Below are positions 5,938 through 61,000 of a stretch of DNA of 64,000 nucleotides, one piece after another. Under the pieces are notes generated by a model. That model saw only the letters and a list, made by a program, of their open reading frames with translations, was not told where the DNA came from and did not search any database. Positions within the stretch are counted from its first letter, which is position 1. Every line of letters begins with the position of its first letter. A program made the position numbers and the translations under genes. Origin of the DNA: Parabacteroides sp. FAFU027 (GTDB lineage Bacteria > Bacteroidota > Bacteroidia > Bacteroidales > UBA7332); NCBI RefSeq assembly GCF_022808675.1, contig NZ_JAKZKV010000002.1, forward strand, positions 1-64,000, in the 5' to 3' direction.

Positions 5938-8931
5938 TTATTTAACCATCAAAACTTTTCGTGTTATATTTCCGGTAATATCAGATATGGCCACTATATA
6001 TGTACCTGTAGCAAGATTATTGATATTTACAGCCTGGTTTGAGGAGTTAATCTCTTGTTCCCAAACTAAGCTTCCAACAGAGTTGTATATGTAAATCCGG
6101 CCCTCTTCTATCCCACCAACAACGATCTTCTCTTTTGCCGGATTCGGATAAATTGAGACCTGTTTCATTGCAATCTCTTTCACAATTGAGGTTTTTAAAT
6201 ATAGATTCTTAATCTCAGTCAAGGTCATCCCATAATTATAGAATCGCATATCATCCAGCAAGCCGTTGAAATAGGGATCGCTGCTAAACTGAGATTTACC
6301 CAGATAATTGGCTGTAGTCGCCGCTAAGTCATAAGGTCTCAGATAGAAGGGATAAGAAGTTCCGACAGCAGCGCCATCCAGGTAAATCGTCAGTTTATTT
6401 GCACCCAGAGTTACGGCGACATGATGCCAAGCTCCAATAGGCAAAGCTGAACTTGCATTAACGGTCTGAGTTCTTCCATCTGAACTTAACATTGAGAAAC
6501 TCATCAAGCCAGAGCCATTATATGGAGAAAGAAACATATATGAAGTTGTTCCACTACCTAAATCCAAAATCCGGGACCACGATGTCTGGGCATTGTACTT
6601 CACCCAGGTAGCAATAGTAAAGTCACTTAGTTTCTCTATAAATCCGTTGGGTAATTTCACATAATCATCCACACCATCCATGCTTATGGCATTATTAAAT
6701 TCACCTGTCGCTGGAATAGGTCCGTTATATAGAATTCCTGTGAGATTATTTCCATTTGAATCAATCGCAAAATATCCGGTCGTCTTTTCATCGAATTTAT
6801 AGTAGGGCAATTTGGTCGTAGTTGCATTTATAACATAAGTTACTGTATCGGACACTTGCACTGCTCCGGCTTTGTCGTACGCCTTTGCCAATAATTTATA
6901 CGTCCCCGTTTTATTTACCGATAGTAGATTATAGGTAAATGGTGAAACCTTAGAGGTAAAATATAAACTATCATTAACATACACCTCTACTTTATCCAAT
7001 GCTCCATCCAAATCATACGCAGAACCATTGATATAAATATTAGCCGGAGCAACATAAGCAGTATGGCCTATCGCCGGAGAGACCATCTTAACAATAGGAC
7101 GGATATTCCCCTGAATAAATTTTGCTTTATCAAATACTGCTTTGCACAAAGCATTGGTATTATTACTGGACACAGCAAGTCCTGCTAAAGTAAGACGATT
7201 GAATTTTAAAATGGCACTACCAATGGTAGTCCAGCTCAAACTATCAGGCGATACTGATGCGGTAAATGTATTTCCTGAACGCGATAATTGAAGCCAGTAT
7301 GGAAATGTATTAAACGCTGTATTTGATGCAACTGTTTTTGTTGTTTTTCCGGTACTGTCACGAACGGTAAAAACGGCCCCCTGACTAGCAGTAAGACTTA
7401 ATAGAGCGTTCACCGAATTTTGCTCCAGGTTTTCCCGAATCATAAGTCCGGCCTGACACAACGAATTTACTTCATCTATAGAGTTTATCCTTGCAATGAT
7501 GGAGCCGTCATCGACAATCTTCTGATAGGCAAACTGACAATAATCTGAAGCACCTTTTATTCCGGCACCGGTACCGTAAACAGTAAGAACACTATTTTGC
7601 ATGGTAGTCTTTCCATAGACCGGAAGTTTTGCAATTGATCTGGCACTTATATCCAGGAATTCCCAGGGTAGGATGTAAGTTCCTGAATCAGCCGCTGATG
7701 TCAGAGCCATAATACCCGGTGTATCATAAGTATCCGCATGAACCGCTGTACTTGAAATTGCAGTGGACGGTTGTTGCTGGAGAATCTCTGTAATGCTTTT
7801 TATTTTATCACCCTGATTTAAACGGTGGGCATAATGATTGTAAATTGTCTCCCAACAACGACCATATTTTCCACGGGTAGCAGCTCCCAAAGCGGATTCT
7901 GTGTACCAGGAACAATTCGACCCCATCTGTCTGGAATAGGTTGTATATGGTAAATCATTGTATTTACCCACCCATGCACCTGTACTGTCGGTCATCATGA
8001 TATTGTAACGGGCAACATATTCAGCTCCTTTACGATAACGGCAATTGTCATATCCATACATATCAATGCCCTGATTCCATGACATCTCACAAAATAAGCC
8101 ATAGAGTTGTAGTCCCCCCACAGCGTGTCCCTGGTCACGGCCACTCTCTTCCCATTGACCCCAGATATTGGCTCCAACCGTTGGCAGATTGGGATAGAGG
8201 AAATTGACTGACCTTGTTATATTTCCGGTACCATCTCCGTTTTTAGCATAGCTTAACGCTTCATTAAAAAGATCTTTGTTGTCACAAAATATACCAATGG
8301 CCATGATAGAATTCATATTGCAGATATCCCAATTGACGCGATAATTAGTTGCACAAGCATCATTGTGATTAATTAGAAATATAGAGTTATTTGGATAAAA
8401 TACCGTCATCAGATATTTTTTGAATTTCTCTACATTAAAACCGGAATACCCGCGCATTAATTCTGCTGCCATAGCGAACTGATAGCCATTTAAGCCCAAT
8501 GCCAGAAAACGATCCGAGTTACCCGATACGGAAGTGTTAATATTTGCCCAGGCATTTAAGATTTCAGCGGCTTTAGCGGCGTGTGCCAGATCTCCGTTTA
8601 TTTTATAAATCATGGCATGCTCATAGACTGCAGCCACATCCCGATACATTAATTGGATATTATTCGGTGTTCCGGACCCTCTATACACAATATCCGTTGC
8701 GTGAGAAGTCCAGGACAACTGAGCTTCAGGCGCTGCAAGGAGATTCTTCCAGGCGGTATACCAGGGTTCGGCTTGTTCTGCAATTTTTTGTCTTGCCCGT
8801 GCCAAATCAGACTCTTTGTGCAAAATACCCGGATGCACAAAATCCTGGGCATTTAATTGAATAATCATACCTATACTACACCAAAGAGTCATGAGCATGA
8901 TTGCTTTTCTTAATTGTACTGATGTTTTCAT
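5938..8931 (-). CDS. Secreted alginate-lyase-fold protein with Ig, LamG and T9SS domains
   Basis: 997 residues. Signal peptide (about 1-28, ending LNAQ); alginate-lyase-family alpha-helical domain (about 30-390), with family-like stretches HPGILHKESDL, NWDICNMNS and GRDQGHAVGG; a concanavalin-like region (about 430-610); a bacterial Ig domain (about 615-705); a LamG jelly roll (about 725-900); and a T9SS type A sorting domain (about 920-997, starting VSIYPNPA and ending KVLMVK). The fold is shared by several polysaccharide lyase families acting on uronates (PL5 and PL38 among them); the exact substrate cannot be read from sequence. It is predicted to be exported by T9SS and held at the surface. 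Its leader carries the shared two-part promoter signature. Confidence 0.75.
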   Translation of the reverse strand: MKTSVQLRKAIMLMTLWCSIGMIIQLNAQDFVHPGILHKESDLARARQKIAEQAEPWYTAWKNLLAAPEAQLSWTSHATDIVYRGSGTPNNIQLMYRDVAAVYEHAMIYKINGDLAHAAKAAEILNAWANINTSVSGNSDRFLALGLNGYQFAMAAELMRGYSGFNVEKFKKYLMTVFYPNNSIFLINHNDACATNYRVNWDICNMNSIMAIGIFCDNKDLFNEALSYAKNGDGTGNITRSVNFLYPNLPTVGANIWGQWEESGRDQGHAVGGLQLYGLFCEMSWNQGIDMYGYDNCRYRKGAEYVARYNIMMTDSTGAWVGKYNDLPYTTYSRQMGSNCSWYTESALGAATRGKYGRCWETIYNHYAHRLNQGDKIKSITEILQQQPSTAISSTAVHADTYDTPGIMALTSAADSGTYILPWEFLDISARSIAKLPVYGKTTMQNSVLTVYGTGAGIKGASDYCQFAYQKIVDDGSIIARINSIDEVNSLCQAGLMIRENLEQNSVNALLSLTASQGAVFTVRDSTGKTTKTVASNTAFNTFPYWLQLSRSGNTFTASVSPDSLSWTTIGSAILKFNRLTLAGLAVSSNNTNALCKAVFDKAKFIQGNIRPIVKMVSPAIGHTAYVAPANIYINGSAYDLDGALDKVEVYVNDSLYFTSKVSPFTYNLLSVNKTGTYKLLAKAYDKAGAVQVSDTVTYVINATTTKLPYYKFDEKTTGYFAIDSNGNNLTGILYNGPIPATGEFNNAISMDGVDDYVKLPNGFIEKLSDFTIATWVKYNAQTSWSRILDLGSGTTSYMFLSPYNGSGLMSFSMLSSDGRTQTVNASSALPIGAWHHVAVTLGANKLTIYLDGAAVGTSYPFYLRPYDLAATTANYLGKSQFSSDPYFNGLLDDMRFYNYGMTLTEIKNLYLKTSIVKEIAMKQVSIYPNPAKEKIVVGGIEEGRIYIYNSVGSLVWEQEINSSNQAVNINNLATGTYIVAISDITGNITRKVLMVK

Positions 8932-42492: not shown

Positions 42493-42569
42493 ACATAAAG
42501 ATTTAAAGTTCTCCTACTCTATGGGCTTTTCGGAATCCGCCGGATAAACTATTACATTATATTCTACTA

Positions 42570-55848: not shown

Positions 55849-55866
55849 TTTTTTGTTGTCAAATAC

Positions 55867-56562
55867 TTACTTGGGGTCTATAGCTCTAAATTTCATATAA
55901 TAAAAAAAGAGAAACATACATGGAATGAATTGATACTGTATCAATAGAAACAACTGTTCTATTAAATACAAAAACATCGTCTTAACATAAGCTAGCAGTC
56001 CTATTTCACAACCAAAGCCAGACTCAAAACCATCAAAATTAGCAGTTTCATAAAAAAGGTATCGTCTTGTTTGCGAATCATCTGATTCTTCTGGCATTTC
56101 ACTTCTTATGTATACGAAATCCTTATTTTCACTAGTAGATGGCTCTCCCTTGAGACCTTCTCCAGAAGTAACAGTATAAGCACCCTCATAATCGCCAAAA
56201 AAGTAATTCGACTTAAAAAAGTTCAAATAGAAAAGAGCAATCACAATAAGAAGGACTGGCATTACCTCTGATGCTTTAAAAAATGGAGCAAAGCGTCGAA
56301 AAAAATACAAGACTAGCTTATACAAAATAGAACCACCAACAACTACAATTACAACGCCCAATATATAGATATATGACGATTGAAATATTTTACCAAATAA
56401 ACTTTCAGAGTCAACACAGTTAAAAAAAAATTTCAGATGGACCCGGATATTTGAAAGCCAAGTCATAAAAAAACGGAGTAAGGTCAAAAAGATAGTAAAT
56501 AGAAACGAAGCATATATACTCAACTTGAATATCCTAATCGTTTTAGCATTCATAAACTTCAT
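55867..56562 (-). CDS. Unknown membrane protein with four helices
   Basis: 231 residues with hydrophobic segments at about 10-33, 64-91, 100-123 and 190-222; between the last two is a soluble loop containing SSENKDF-like polar sequence and EMPEESDDSQTRRY. I do not recognise a family. It starts 6 bp after the small gene at 56569, so the two form an operon. Base composition is more AT-rich than the uxa genes alongside, consistent with an accessory island. Confidence 0.6.
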   Translation of the reverse strand: MKFMNAKTIRIFKLSIYASFLFTIFLTLLRFFMTWLSNIRVHLKFFFNCVDSESLFGKIFQSSYIYILGVVIVVVGGSILYKLVLYFFRRFAPFFKASEVMPVLLIVIALFYLNFFKSNYFFGDYEGAYTVTSGEGLKGEPSTSENKDFVYIRSEMPEESDDSQTRRYLFYETANFDGFESGFGCEIGLLAYVKTMFLYLIEQLFLLIQYQFIPCMFLFFYYMKFRAIDPK

Positions 56563-56568
56563 ATTTGG

Positions 56569-56790
56569 TTAATCCTTGATCAAACGGCATTCAATTTCTG
56601 ATAGAGTTTTATTTAAATACGGCTCAAACTCATGCTCCATTACTCCATCAACTCGTTTCAAAACAAAATCATTTTTTCTTGCTGCGTGTATTTCCCCATT
56701 TTGCAAATAAAGTTTCTCATTGGGTTCTGACAAGATTTCGTATATCCCTTTTAGCCCTTTGCATCTTACATTATCTCCTTTCTTGTACAT
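56569..56790 (-). CDS. Unknown small protein, possibly SH3-like
   Basis: 73 residues. The first half, with KGDNVRCKGLKGIYEI then LYLQNGEIHAARKNDFV, looks like a small beta-barrel of the SH3/KOW kind, as seen in several small proteins; that is inference. The second half is acidic and helical. It precedes the membrane protein gene with a 6-bp gap. The function is unknown. Confidence 0.55.
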   Translation of the reverse strand: MYKKGDNVRCKGLKGIYEILSEPNEKLYLQNGEIHAARKNDFVLKRVDGVMEHEFEPYLNKTLSEIECRLIKD

Positions 56791-56811
56791 ACGTATAGAA
56801 TTTATGATTTA

Positions 56812-56879
56812 CATAAAAAGTGGGATTCGAACCCACACCTTCGTTGTCAACGATGTTCTTCCAATTAAACTATTTAACT
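56812..56879 (-). tRNA. Degenerate tRNA-like sequence, GAC in the anticodon position
   Basis: Minus strand. The T-arm is perfect (GTGGG, TTCGAAT, CCCAC at 56836-56820), the D-arm is good (TA GTTT AATTGGAA GAAC) and a TTGACAA loop places GAC as anticodon, nominally Val. The anticodon stem has only three good pairs (TCG/CGA), the acceptor strands AGTTAAA and TTTTTAT pair at only the inner three positions, and there is no CCA. It is probably a tRNA pseudogene or remnant rather than a functional tRNA. Confidence 0.4.
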
Positions 56880-57070
56880 CCCATTTTCATGTGAATATTT
56901 AACTCTACATTAAATTCCCATGAAATACGAGATCGCAATTGTGCCAGTTTCTTTGAAACAATCTGAAAAATATCTGATAGATAATTTGGAATTAAAAAGG
57001 CACAATGCTCTTTCATAACTTCCATTATTTCCATAATGATTCATTTTAAAAGATTCTGTGCACTATTGCA

Positions 57071-57139
57071 TTGCTTTCGATGGGACTTGAACCCACATCT
57101 GCAAAAACGTGCCACCTATCCAATTCAGCCACAAAAGCA
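57071..57139 (-). tRNA. Degenerate tRNA-like sequence, anticodon arm shortened
   Basis: Minus strand. The acceptor is good (TGCTTTT with GAAAGCA, all seven paired including one G-U) and the T-arm is good (GTGGG, TTCAAGT, CCCAT). The D-arm can pair three bases. Only 14 bases lie between the D-arm and T-arm, too few for a normal anticodon arm and variable loop, so no anticodon can be assigned. It is 69 bases long and has no CCA. A remnant or tRNA mimic is more likely than a decoding tRNA. Confidence 0.4.
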
Positions 57140-57230
57140 TCCAAAATTATAAATAAATATTTGTTTGGCAAGAATATACCTATTCTTGTTTATGTCTCTT
57201 CAAAGCAAATACAAATCCCACTTCAACCCG

Positions 57231-57694
57231 CTACAAAATGTAGAACTAAGAATTACACCTCAACCAACCATCTACAAAATGTAGGAACAAGAATCAAACC
57301 TTATTCAACCCTCTACATTTTGTAGAAACAAAAATGAGTATTCATTCAACCCGCTACAAAATGTAGAAGCTTAGTTTAAGCTGCAGTGGACCATCTACAA
57401 AATGTAGAAACCCCAACGACAACCCATTCAACCCGATGCAATTTGCAGAATCAAGAATGAGGCATCATTCAACCTGCTGCAAAATGCAGGAGCTTGTTTT
57501 ATGTTGTTGTGGAGTTGCTGCAAAATGCAGGAGCTCCAACGAGATCCTATTCTTCCTCCTGCAAATTGCAGGAGGTTGAATAAGTATGCATCCAACCGCC
57601 TGCAAAATGCAGGAACATGAATAAGGTCCGTTTCAGGCTGCTGCAAAACGCAGCGACCTGAATGGCACACCAACGAGCATTCTGCAAAATGCAG
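57231..57694. repeat. Array of 12 palindromes with an exact 41-bp period
   Basis: Twelve 13-bp hyphenated palindromes start at 57231, 57272, 57313, 57354, 57395, 57436, 57477, 57518, 57559, 57600, 57641 and 57682, always 41 bp apart. Copies 1, 2, 4 and 5 read CTACAAAATGTAG; copy 3 is its reverse complement; copy 6 is intermediate (ATGCAATTTGCAG); copies 7, 8, 10 and 12 read CTGCAAAATGCAG, copy 9 has AAT in the centre and copy 11 an arm mismatch. Arms thus changed together, preserving symmetry. The 28-bp intervals vary but are related (copies three units apart are about 57-79% alike). No copy is present 41 bp outside either end. It is not a CRISPR array and not coding. Confidence 0.9.
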
Positions 57695-58000: not shown

Positions 58001-61000
58001 ATGAAACCACACCTACTCTACCGCGCCACGCAATGGCTGCTTATCCTTTCATTTGCTGTATTACCGCTATCCTGTAAAAAAGAACTGAAACCCCTGACCG
58101 TTGATCCGGCCTTTGCGGCTTATGTGATATCCTTCACATCGGGGGTGGTATCCAATGCAACCAAAATACAGGTACGGTTGGTGCAGGAATGTAAAGAGGC
58201 TGTTCCCGGAAAAGAGCTGTCATCCAATCCGTTTTCGATCAGTCCGGGAGTGAGCGGAAAGGCGGTATGGGTGGATCGTCAGACAATTGAGTTTATTCCG
58301 GACGAAAAGCTGGAGTCAGGTGAGATTTATACCGTTGACTTTGCCCTGAATGATTTCGTACAGGTACCATCGGAATTGAAGACGTTGAAATTCCGCTTTC
58401 AGGTGATGAAGCAGAATATCTCGTACGAGTTTAACGGGATAGAGCCGGAGAATGAATCGGACATGAAGCTGCAAAAGATACGCGGTAGTTTTACCACCGC
58501 CGATGTGGCAGAGGGAAGCGAACTGGAGAAGATTATAGAATTCAGTGGGAAAGCCGGTGAGCATGTCAACTGGATTCACAGCAAAGATGGACATTTTCAC
58601 AGCTTCACACTCGACAGTGTAGAGCGGAAGGAGGATGCTTATAAAATAGACATTGAATGGAATGGTAAGAAAATAGGGGCTAAAAATGGATCTGAAGAGT
58701 TTGAAATGCCCGGAATCAATGAGTTCAAGGTGATCCATGTCAAAACCGTTTCGGTTCCCAAAGCCCAGATTGAGGTCTATTTCTCGGATCCGGTGAGCAG
58801 GATGCAGGATCTGGATGGACTGTTTAAACTCTCAGGCAATATTCCCATGGGAATCATGGCCAACGGGAATGTGGTAAAACTGATCCCAACCCAACCAGTC
58901 ACGGGGGAAGTAGATCTGATGGTTTACGGAGGAATCCGGAATACCCTCGAGCGTAGTATGGGGGCAGGCCAGAACTTCCGGTTGAAGTTTGTCAGCCTGA
59001 AGCCTCAGGTGGAACTTATCGGAGACGGTGTGATCGTTCCTCACAGCGGGGGAATAATGTTTCCCTTCCGGGCTGTAAGCCTTTCGGCTGTGGATGTGAG
59101 GATCATCAAGATTTTTGAAAACAACATCGTCCAGTTTTTACAGACAAATCAGCTGAATGAAAACAATGAGCTCAAACGTGTGGGCCGGGTGGTGTACAAT
59201 CAGGAAGTACAGCTTACCTCCGAGGAAAAGATTGATTATACCCAATGGAACAACTTCTCGCTGGATCTATCCAAACTCATCGAAACAGAGCCCGGGGCTA
59301 TTTACCGTGTGGAAATCAGCTTCCGGAAGAAGCATTCGCTCTATCCGTGTGTAAACAAATCGGAAGACAAAGAGGAGTACACCGAACCGGAAGATCCGAA
59401 TAAAGAGTACAACGAACCGAACACCTGGGGGTATTACGAGGATGAAGGCGAATACGATTATGAAGATTACAAATGGCAGGACCGCGATGATCCCGGCAAA
59501 CCCTCCTATTACATGGGCAATGCGCACAAGGTGGCGAGAAATATTCTTGCATCGGATTTTGGGATAATCGCCAAAGCCGGTACAGATAATAACTATTTCG
59601 TGGCTGTAACCGACCTCCGCGATACCAAACCGTTTGAAGATGTGGAACTGGAATTCCGGAACCTGCAGAATCAGGTCATCGGGAAATCGAAAACCGATGG
59701 CGACGGGTTTTGCAAAATCAGGTTGCAGGATAAGCCCTTTGTAGTCATCGCCAAAAAGGACAAAGAAAGAGGCTACCTCCGGTTGGATGACGCATCATCC
59801 TTATCGCTTAGTATGTTTGATGTAGCCGGTGAGGAATTGAAAAAAGGGGTACGCGGCTTTATTTACGGTGAACGTGGCGTGTGGCGTCCCGGTGATCTGA
59901 TCTATCTGACATTTATCCTGGAAGATAAAAACAAATCGCTTCCGGCAAACCACCCCGTCATCATGGAACTGTATAATCCATCGGGGCAACTGATCAGCCG
60001 GATGGTGAAAACGGCTAACCTGAATGGCTTCTATAACTTCCTGATCAAAACCAACCCAACTGCTGCAACCGGAAACTGGTCTGTAAAGATGCGCGTCGGA
60101 GGTTCGGTCTTTGCCCGTAACCTGAGAATCGAGACGGTAAAACCCAACCGACTGAAGATCAATCTCAACTTCGGCTCGCAATTATTAAAAAAGGGTGTTC
60201 CGGTAAATGGTAAACTTCAGGTCAACTGGTTGCATGGCGCTCCGGCGGCTAATGCAAAGGTGAAAATTGACGCTACAGTAGCTGCGACCAATACTACCTT
60301 TGCCGCTTTTCCCGGATATATATTTGACGACCCGGTGAAGAAAGTGGCCTCTCAGGATATTTCTGTATTTAACGGCACACTCAATCCGGAAGGAGCGGCA
60401 GCAGTCAATACGCACTTTGATTTTGCATCCGATGCTCCGGGTATGCTGGCGGTACAGATGAAAACCACGGCCTTTGAAGGAGGCGGGGATTTCAGTACCG
60501 ACCGGGCTATATTCAATTATTCTCCCTACAAATCCTATGTCGGGGTAAGAATACCACAAGGCAAGGGATGGAACAACGCACTCAACTCCGACGAAGTCAA
60601 TCTTGTCCCCATTGCACTGGTGGATGAAAACGGAAGGGGAAAATCGGGAAAAGTCAAAATCGAAGTTTACAGCGTTTACTGGCGTTGGTGGTGGGAACAT
60701 CAGGCAGAAGAGAATCTGGCCGATTACGTAACCAACCAACACACCAACCTGATCAAATCGGATATTGTTTCTATTACCGGTGGCCGCGGTTTTTACCAGA
60801 TGTATCTCGGCTCACAGGACTATGGACGAAAGCTGATCCGCATCACCGACCTGGAGAGCGGACACAGTACAGGGGGTATTTTCTATACAACCTATAAAGG
60901 CTGGTGGAGCAATGCCGGAAACGACAATCCCGGTGGAGCGGAGATGCTCATGTTCCAAACGGATAAGAAAGAGTACAAAACCGGCGAAAAGATTACTATC

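Follow-up and report, generated by a model that had tools for sequence, protein, structure and literature searches.

Organization of the palindrome array

What could hold a series of short palindromes at one exact spacing in intergenic DNA, and to what kind of system might such a series belong? The question was raised by an array in the window, by which we mean the whole stretch of 64,000 nucleotides from Parabacteroides sp. FAFU027 that was analyzed (Table 1). The initial annotation had described twelve 13-bp palindromes at an invariant 41-bp period without a base gained or lost, and this description held: all 12 starts fit 57231 + 41n (n = 0–11), with zero indels. Ten of the 12 units matched CTRCANNNTGYAG exactly, for which the chance expectation in the window was 0.16; at least 10 matches occurred in 0 of 100 shuffles. 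Copy 6 (ATGCAATTTGCAG, 57436) and copy 11 (CTGCAAAACGCAG, 57641, within the TGC-type block) had one mismatch each. The proposed growth by 123-bp steps was in agreement with TRF, which assigned the array a period of 41 bp (score 155) and, with a higher score (305), one of 123 bp.

Table 1. Coordinates of the window array, its parts and the arrays with the same palindrome in the FAFU027 genome.
Feature	Position	Strand	Description
Entire array	57231..57694	.	12 palindromes, exact 41-bp period, intergenic, gene-less
Copies 1–5, TAC-type (CTACAWWWTGTAG)	57231..57407	.	Same palindrome as the array before DUF6261 C1:47397
Copy 6, ATGCAATTTGCAG	57436..57448	.	Broken outer pair; sits where the two blocks meet
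Copies 7–12, TGC-type (CTGCAWWWTGCAG)	57477..57694	.	Same palindrome as the array before DUF6261 C5:97748
11 intervals of 28 bp	57244..57681	.	Weaker second dyad in each
Own-genome CTRCANNNTGYAG arrays	C1:48142, C2:57231, C2:65994, C2:69123, C3:295667, C5:98491, C5:104284		

The two arms had been said to change together, as was also observed: pair 3-11 was complementary in 55 of the 57 units in the genome, where 27.5 were expected. This co-variation was arranged as two blocks, TAC-type units first and TGC-type units second, and a half-and-half unit, CTACAACTTGCAG, was located exactly at the block junction in the C3 array of the sister genome. Two blocks that meet at a hybrid unit indicate that inheritance and recombination account for part of the arm co-variation. 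The intervals had been regarded as free of selection, which was contradicted by their second dyad (consensus GGTTGAAT...ATTCAACC), centered 20.5 bp from the flanking palindromes. When the own-genome arrays were pooled, interval complementarity was 43% at this half-period center vs. 18–26% at neighboring offsets.

Neither Rfam nor ARAGORN gave a match across the array, and A-tracts inspected by eye lacked the 10-bp steps of phased curvature. A protein-coding tandem repeat was rejected; the open reading frames were short (84 and 96 aa) and covered parts of the array only, and the coding reading fails because 41 is not divisible by 3 and TAC-type units contain TAG. An A2M gene at 58001 lies downstream. 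Since no DUF6261 gene (see below) adjoins the array, it was classed as a gene-less copy rather than a full locus. Elsewhere in the window, two degenerate tRNA-like sequences on the minus strand (56817–56875 and 57072–57138), recognized by Rfam and not by ARAGORN, were found inside 55866–57216, a segment that did not align with the sister genome's orthologous locus. A match to the DUF805b cis-regulatory RNA (42511–42543, minus strand) scored just above the Rfam cut-off.

Arrays with the same palindrome

At least seven CTRCANNNTGYAG arrays were present in the FAFU027 genome and four in a sister genome (G002; JAUZOF01, 'Bacteroidota bin86(7d)'). They comprised 7–13 units, with spacing errors in 0 of 83 intervals, and the surrounding genes were divergent, codirectional or convergent. 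When tandem dyads (periods 15–89) were sought without regard to sequence in 464 kb of the FAFU027 genome, a single 41-bp array was recovered, that of the window (the 464 kb do not include the other 41-bp arrays with this palindrome), together with two further arrays of 23/46 bp. A related array at L034:7060-7245 (G000:C1:~261 kb) consisted of CTGCAAWTTGCAG palindromes of 13 and 14 bp, ~40–41 bp apart, with a different interval (GGAGATAATTTC...AAGTTCTGAG).

Orthologous arrays differed in copy number by whole units. In 14 conserved orthologous units compared with the sister genome, changes were found at 0 of 182 palindrome positions and 11 of 392 interval positions; after adding the faster C3 array, the change rate was 4.6% in arms and 8.5% in intervals. 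Because the orthologous flanks were indel-free as well, nothing can be concluded from the lack of indels between orthologous arrays, and the argument for fixed spacing derives from the one period that unrelated arrays have in common. A block of 408 bp, array plus flanks, was common to L033 and L039b, and the sister genome has a different array at the C1:48142 site. Flanks of different arrays had no common ends except in L033, L039b and L042.

When 84,980 genomes were scanned for CTACAWWWTGTAG pairs with any gap of 14–44 bp, a gap of 28 bp (period 41) was found in Prolixibacter denitrificans, P. bellariivorans and Prolixibacteraceae MAGs, and a gap of 27 bp in one Paludibacter MAG and one further Prolixibacteraceae MAG. 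In a Dysgonamonadaceae MAG, window-type palindromes recurred every 21 bp, which is half the period. The intervals in these genomes were unrelated to those of the window array, and matches beyond these Bacteroidales had other gaps and were apparently unrelated. Irregular spacing in related genomes, which the initial annotation had named as evidence against its reading, was not encountered; all arrays detected had a spacing of 40–43 bp, bar the 21-bp arrays of the Dysgonamonadaceae MAG.

Association with DUF6261 genes

Two of the own-genome arrays (C1:48142 and C5:98491) lay 67–86 bp from the start of a gene for a DUF6261 protein (PF19775), as did arrays in two MAGs. The DUF6261 genes at C1:47397 and C5:97748 are preceded by the same palindromes as occur in the window array, TAC-type and TGC-type, respectively. 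Over three sets of loci, tandem repetition (at least 55% identity) was detected upstream of DUF6261 at 100 of the 126 loci tested; these are partly orthologues and hence not all independent, and most of their arrays are unrelated in sequence. The period was 41–43 bp or two to three times that in 99 of the 100. In the discovery set (82 loci with sufficient upstream sequence, 15 genomes), repetition was found upstream of 64 loci and downstream of 2, and 63 of the 64 periods were 41–43 bp or a two- to threefold multiple of it, the exception being a run of N. Dyad-chain scores of at least 20 were reached in 26 of these upstream regions and in 0 shuffles, and the best period in those 26 was always 41, 42 or 43 (18–74 tested). 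Upstream repetition was likewise found at 25 of the 28 loci of a second set, identified via the palindrome, with all periods 41–42 bp or multiples, and at 11 of 16 loci from other classes of the phylum (0 of 16 downstream). As background, any period at that level was seen in 51 of 1301 windows of the FAFU027 genome (4%).

DUF6261 was present in 15 of 119 relatives, where a single genome had as many as 18 copies, and 12 members of a phylum-wide sample of 395 genomes carried it. All seven Bacteroidales genomes with CTRCA arrays carried DUF6261 vs. 0 of 2 genomes with isolated pairs only. The FAFU027 genome also harbors 41/42-bp arrays without a DUF6261 gene in the vicinity. A stretch of 14.8 kb was 100% identical across two of its contigs (G000:C1:715000-730000 and C7:60000-75000), and DUF6261 loci occur in duplicate in these two contigs; the duplication is either real or one of assembly.

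The window array thus almost certainly belongs to a class of DUF6261-linked phased dyad arrays, and it looks like one half of an undescribed system of protein plus DNA array. The association with DUF6261 is strong and, within the literature searched, new: no earlier description of the arrays was found there, and a single paper, on streptococcal daptomycin resistance, named DUF6261.

DUF6261 is a family without known function, of ~245 aa and predicted to be all-helical. No known DNA-binding domain was matched, NCBIfam, PHROGs and PADLOC yielded nothing credible, and a ZorA match was dismissed as it falls within a coiled-coil stretch. The structure model was weak (mean pLDDT 55.9). Searches of the PDB by sequence and fold returned generic helical bundles only (Z < 9 where such folds need ~13); S23/Avd-like four-helix bundles were among the fold matches of this weak model, tied with others. 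Pfam Nop had 0 matches among 45 members, hhalign with an IS110 protein gave no match, and no occurrence in IMG/VR was confirmed.

A second helical protein family was noticed at L120:6060-7081 (G000:C1:~142 kb; member at 6356–7078), with no Pfam family and no profile similarity to DUF6261. Arrays at multiples of ~21 bp were located upstream in 12 of 14 of its loci and downstream in 0 of 19. They are direct repeats without dyads, some of which could be coding heptads, and the link of this family to arrays is a lead only. The L303 array, in which most units contain TAA and the half-period is ~20.5 bp, is not coding, and the 21-bp direct repeats at L121:13723-14172 (G000:C1:~170 kb), just after a helical-protein gene, read as an open heptad frame (IEIxLTE repeated) and are possibly coding.

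Anatomy and sequence turnover of linked arrays

Among linked arrays, periods of 41 (46 arrays), 42 (34) and 43 bp (5) were found, with a median of 6 units and a median distance of 88 bp to the start codon. The palindrome differed by locus (e.g., GAAACTSAGTTTC, GCCCAGTCTGGGC, TTCGTCCCGGGACGAA and TTGCGGCGGCTGCCGCAA). A second dyad was positioned exactly half a period from the strongest one, at 20.5 bp in arrays of period 41 and 21.0 bp in those of period 42, scoring 0.455 and 0.459, respectively, vs. 0.247 when shuffled. Conservation pooled over 48 arrays was high in the arms, 2–7 bp from the main center; the linkers (8–13 bp) and both loops were variable, and the arms of the second dyad slightly exceeded the linkers. 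With an identity between units of ~0.5, the linkers are mildly variable. Dyad symmetry mainly belongs to the consensus of each array, and compensatory change between units within an array was significant and modest (z = 2.8 and 3.0).

Array similarity remained at background until the DUF6261 proteins were ~40% identical. Among protein pairs at 77–90% identity, some had identical arrays and some had unrelated arrays, such as L162/L173 (86%, same genome) and L248/L258 (90%), whose units were unrelated despite the close proteins. In a search for a specificity segment in DUF6261, no protein segment correlated with array sequence. Unrelated arrays beside close proteins indicate that dyad and phase were retained while the sequence was replaced. 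The conserved feature of the class is thus the dyad plus the period, about four turns of B-DNA.

Gene-less copies were not confined to the window palindrome. A second example in the same genome is GAAACTSAGTTTC: one array is linked to DUF6261 C1:772426, two others, at C1:585655 and C12:16762, are gene-less, and the period is 41 bp in all three. In a congener (G001), the sole DUF6261 gene has an unrelated array (GCCCAGTCTGGGC), and the genome's single CTRCA-like array is no longer arm-symmetric in part of its units (CTACATTTTCTAG and CTACGTTTTCTAG beside CTAGATTTTCTAG) and has kept the 41 bp. This is a hint, from one genome (n = 1), that symmetry decays when the cognate DUF6261 gene is missing. 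In Prolixibacter, gene-less CTACA arrays occur, yet the palindrome was found in 0 of 15 DUF6261 upstream regions fetched, which argues against a simple rule linking gene-less arrays to a cognate gene.

Comparison with known systems

The closest architectural analogue is TIGR-Tas. Some TIGR arrays are palindromic stem-loop arrays, with TasA, and TIGR has hypervariable spacers of 8–12 nt, units processed to 36 nt, and Tas proteins with a Nop domain (PMC12045711). In both cases a tandem array of 5–15 units, each with two alternating repeats, lies by the gene of a single protein, and the repeat sequence is constant inside a locus and different among loci. Unlike in TIGR-Tas, a Nop domain was undetected in DUF6261, the linkers (~0.5 identity) are not hypervariable and the unit is 41–43 bp; also in contrast to TIGR-Tas, the DUF6261 array loci are chromosomal in Bacteroidota. 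A CRISPR array was rejected: the intervals have a common consensus and drift as the rest of the unit does.

The initial annotation had suggested the core of a MITE such as BrickBuilt of Porphyromonas gingivalis, which is likewise an intergenic, multi-copy tandem array in Bacteroidales. The BrickBuilt unit is 23 nt long and repeated in tandem; the element has a leader, a tail and small terminal inverted repeats and no attached protein gene, and the text of the paper mentions no palindrome (PMC4596501). This identification was discarded, the window unit being 41 bp and not 23 nt. Tandem dyads of ATACGNNCGTAT with 23/46 bp at G000:C1:301461 (L128:5461) and C1:323172 (L129:7172), both starting near TTAAGGTGAT and ending near ATCGAATATTACCCTAT, are nearer to BrickBuilt in period than is the window array. 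REP/BIME elements resemble the arrays in their clustered short intergenic palindromes and in having dispersed copies plus one linked protein gene. They differ from the arrays found, beside which there is no Y1 transposase and in which the arms are wholly different per locus and the period is fixed. REP/BIME with RAYT was rejected: the genome has 8 Y1_Tnp matches, 0 of them within 30 kb of the CTRCA arrays found, and none of the six Y1_Tnp loci fetched had a 41-bp dyad array.

In the partition systems parC/ParR and parS/ParB, phased, centromere-like multi-site DNA adjoins the gene of its binder, which sits as a dimer on dyads. The DUF6261 loci share phased multi-site DNA beside the gene of a (candidate) binder. 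They differ in that no ParA/ParM-type gene was noticed beside the arrays, many different arrays occur per chromosome, and DUF6261 has no RHH/HTH domain.

Possible mechanisms

The mechanism that best accounts for these data is a phased dyad array acting together with DUF6261 as a cooperative dimer-on-DNA system, to which we give a roughly even chance. The element would have two parts: alternating dyads (A each 41–43 bp, B half-way) and a DUF6261 gene normally directly downstream; the window array would be a gene-less copy of the DNA half. Each dyad may be occupied by a dimeric protein, probably DUF6261. With arms 2–7 bp (~4.5 bp) from the centers, successive half-sites would be roughly one helical turn apart and would face the same side of the DNA, 41–43 bp corresponding to four turns of 10.25–10.75 bp and 20.5–21 bp to two turns. 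Neighboring dimers would bind cooperatively over 5–12 units. At linked arrays, DUF6261 binding might control its own gene, and gene-less arrays, including that of the window, might form a fixed nucleoprotein block serving as anchor or boundary.

One period in unrelated sequences cannot be due to descent or slippage, so the spacing itself matters. The proposal of a dimer-binding array on one DNA face fits the related loci in its geometry, dyads at 41–43 bp recurring in unrelated sequences; as to the protein, position and co-occurrence make DUF6261 a candidate, and whether it binds the arrays directly we consider evenly balanced. Near-identical DUF6261 proteins with unrelated arrays, and the lack of a protein segment that tracks them, are awkward for an ordinary sequence-specific binder. 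Tentatively, and with low probability, the DUF6261 loci could be a new type of system, protein plus array, whose array sequence may vary freely and serves as a locus-specific address. DUF6261 would then recognize the dyad with its helical phase, or else a hairpin, and the sites addressed would be the gene-less arrays of the same sequence elsewhere in the chromosome.

That the array acts as a DNA lattice rather than through RNA we infer with slightly better than even confidence. In an RNA system, which seems rather unlikely, the array would be transcribed as a string of hairpins and bound or processed by DUF6261, as in TIGR-Tas or CRISPR. The layout is as reported for TIGR (PMC12045711), with the gene of a helical protein alongside, a pair of alternating repeats in each unit and locus-specific sequence. 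Recognition of a fold, not of sequence, would also explain unrelated arrays beside near-identical proteins. RNA folding was strong on both strands (z = −11.6 and −9.1); since either strand of a palindromic array will fold well, this does not decide between RNA and DNA. The initial annotation had set RNA aside because of its weak 5-bp stem, an argument that is incomplete, as neighboring AAA and TTT units pair together. What weighs against RNA is that the unit length follows B-DNA turns (41–43 bp, and 21 in related arrays), that the linkers are mildly variable, unlike guide spacers, and that G-U pairs on the gene-sense strand were not in excess (71 G-T vs. 115 A-C; the apparent A-C excess was gone against slid controls, which had the same ratio). 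Moreover, no promoter motif was consistently ahead of the arrays (TANNTTTG, before or after arrays, was too rare to decide), and gene-less arrays occur in every gene orientation, including divergent.

It is improbable that the arrays are a selfish or passive, minisatellite- or MITE-like repeat with DUF6261 as neighbor or mobility factor. Unequal crossing-over would then hold the period, and template switching at quasi-palindromes would keep the arms paired, in line with the exchange of blocks (408 bp in L033/L039b; the different array at C1:48142 in the sister genome), the shifts of copy number by whole units and the TAC/TGC mosaics, whose blocks are joined through a hybrid unit. However, slippage cannot yield the same 41–43 bp for unrelated sequences at some 100 loci, nor favor upstream over downstream of one gene family, and arrays conserved between species changed in their intervals and not in their palindromes (11/392 vs. 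0/182). An ordinary multi-site operator, by which DUF6261 regulates itself and the genes beside gene-less arrays and nothing more, is less probable still. The location upstream of the gene, at a median of 88 bp from the start codon, and several gene-less arrays between divergent genes or ahead of a start codon would suit it, but L036c (C2:69123) and L072 are flanked by convergent genes and have no promoter to act on, DUF6261 has no recognized DNA-binding domain, and 5–12 sites at fixed spacing exceed the usual need of an operator.

Significance

These arrays are common in Bacteroidota and apparently undescribed, and through them a protein family of unknown function gains a testable partner. 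They represent a rare case in which sequence is nearly free and symmetry and helical phase are fixed across some 100 loci, raising the question of how a protein might keep pace with the array sequence or disregard it. A DNA-based system would amount to a new phased nucleoprotein lattice, an RNA-based one to a relative of TIGR-Tas in layout.
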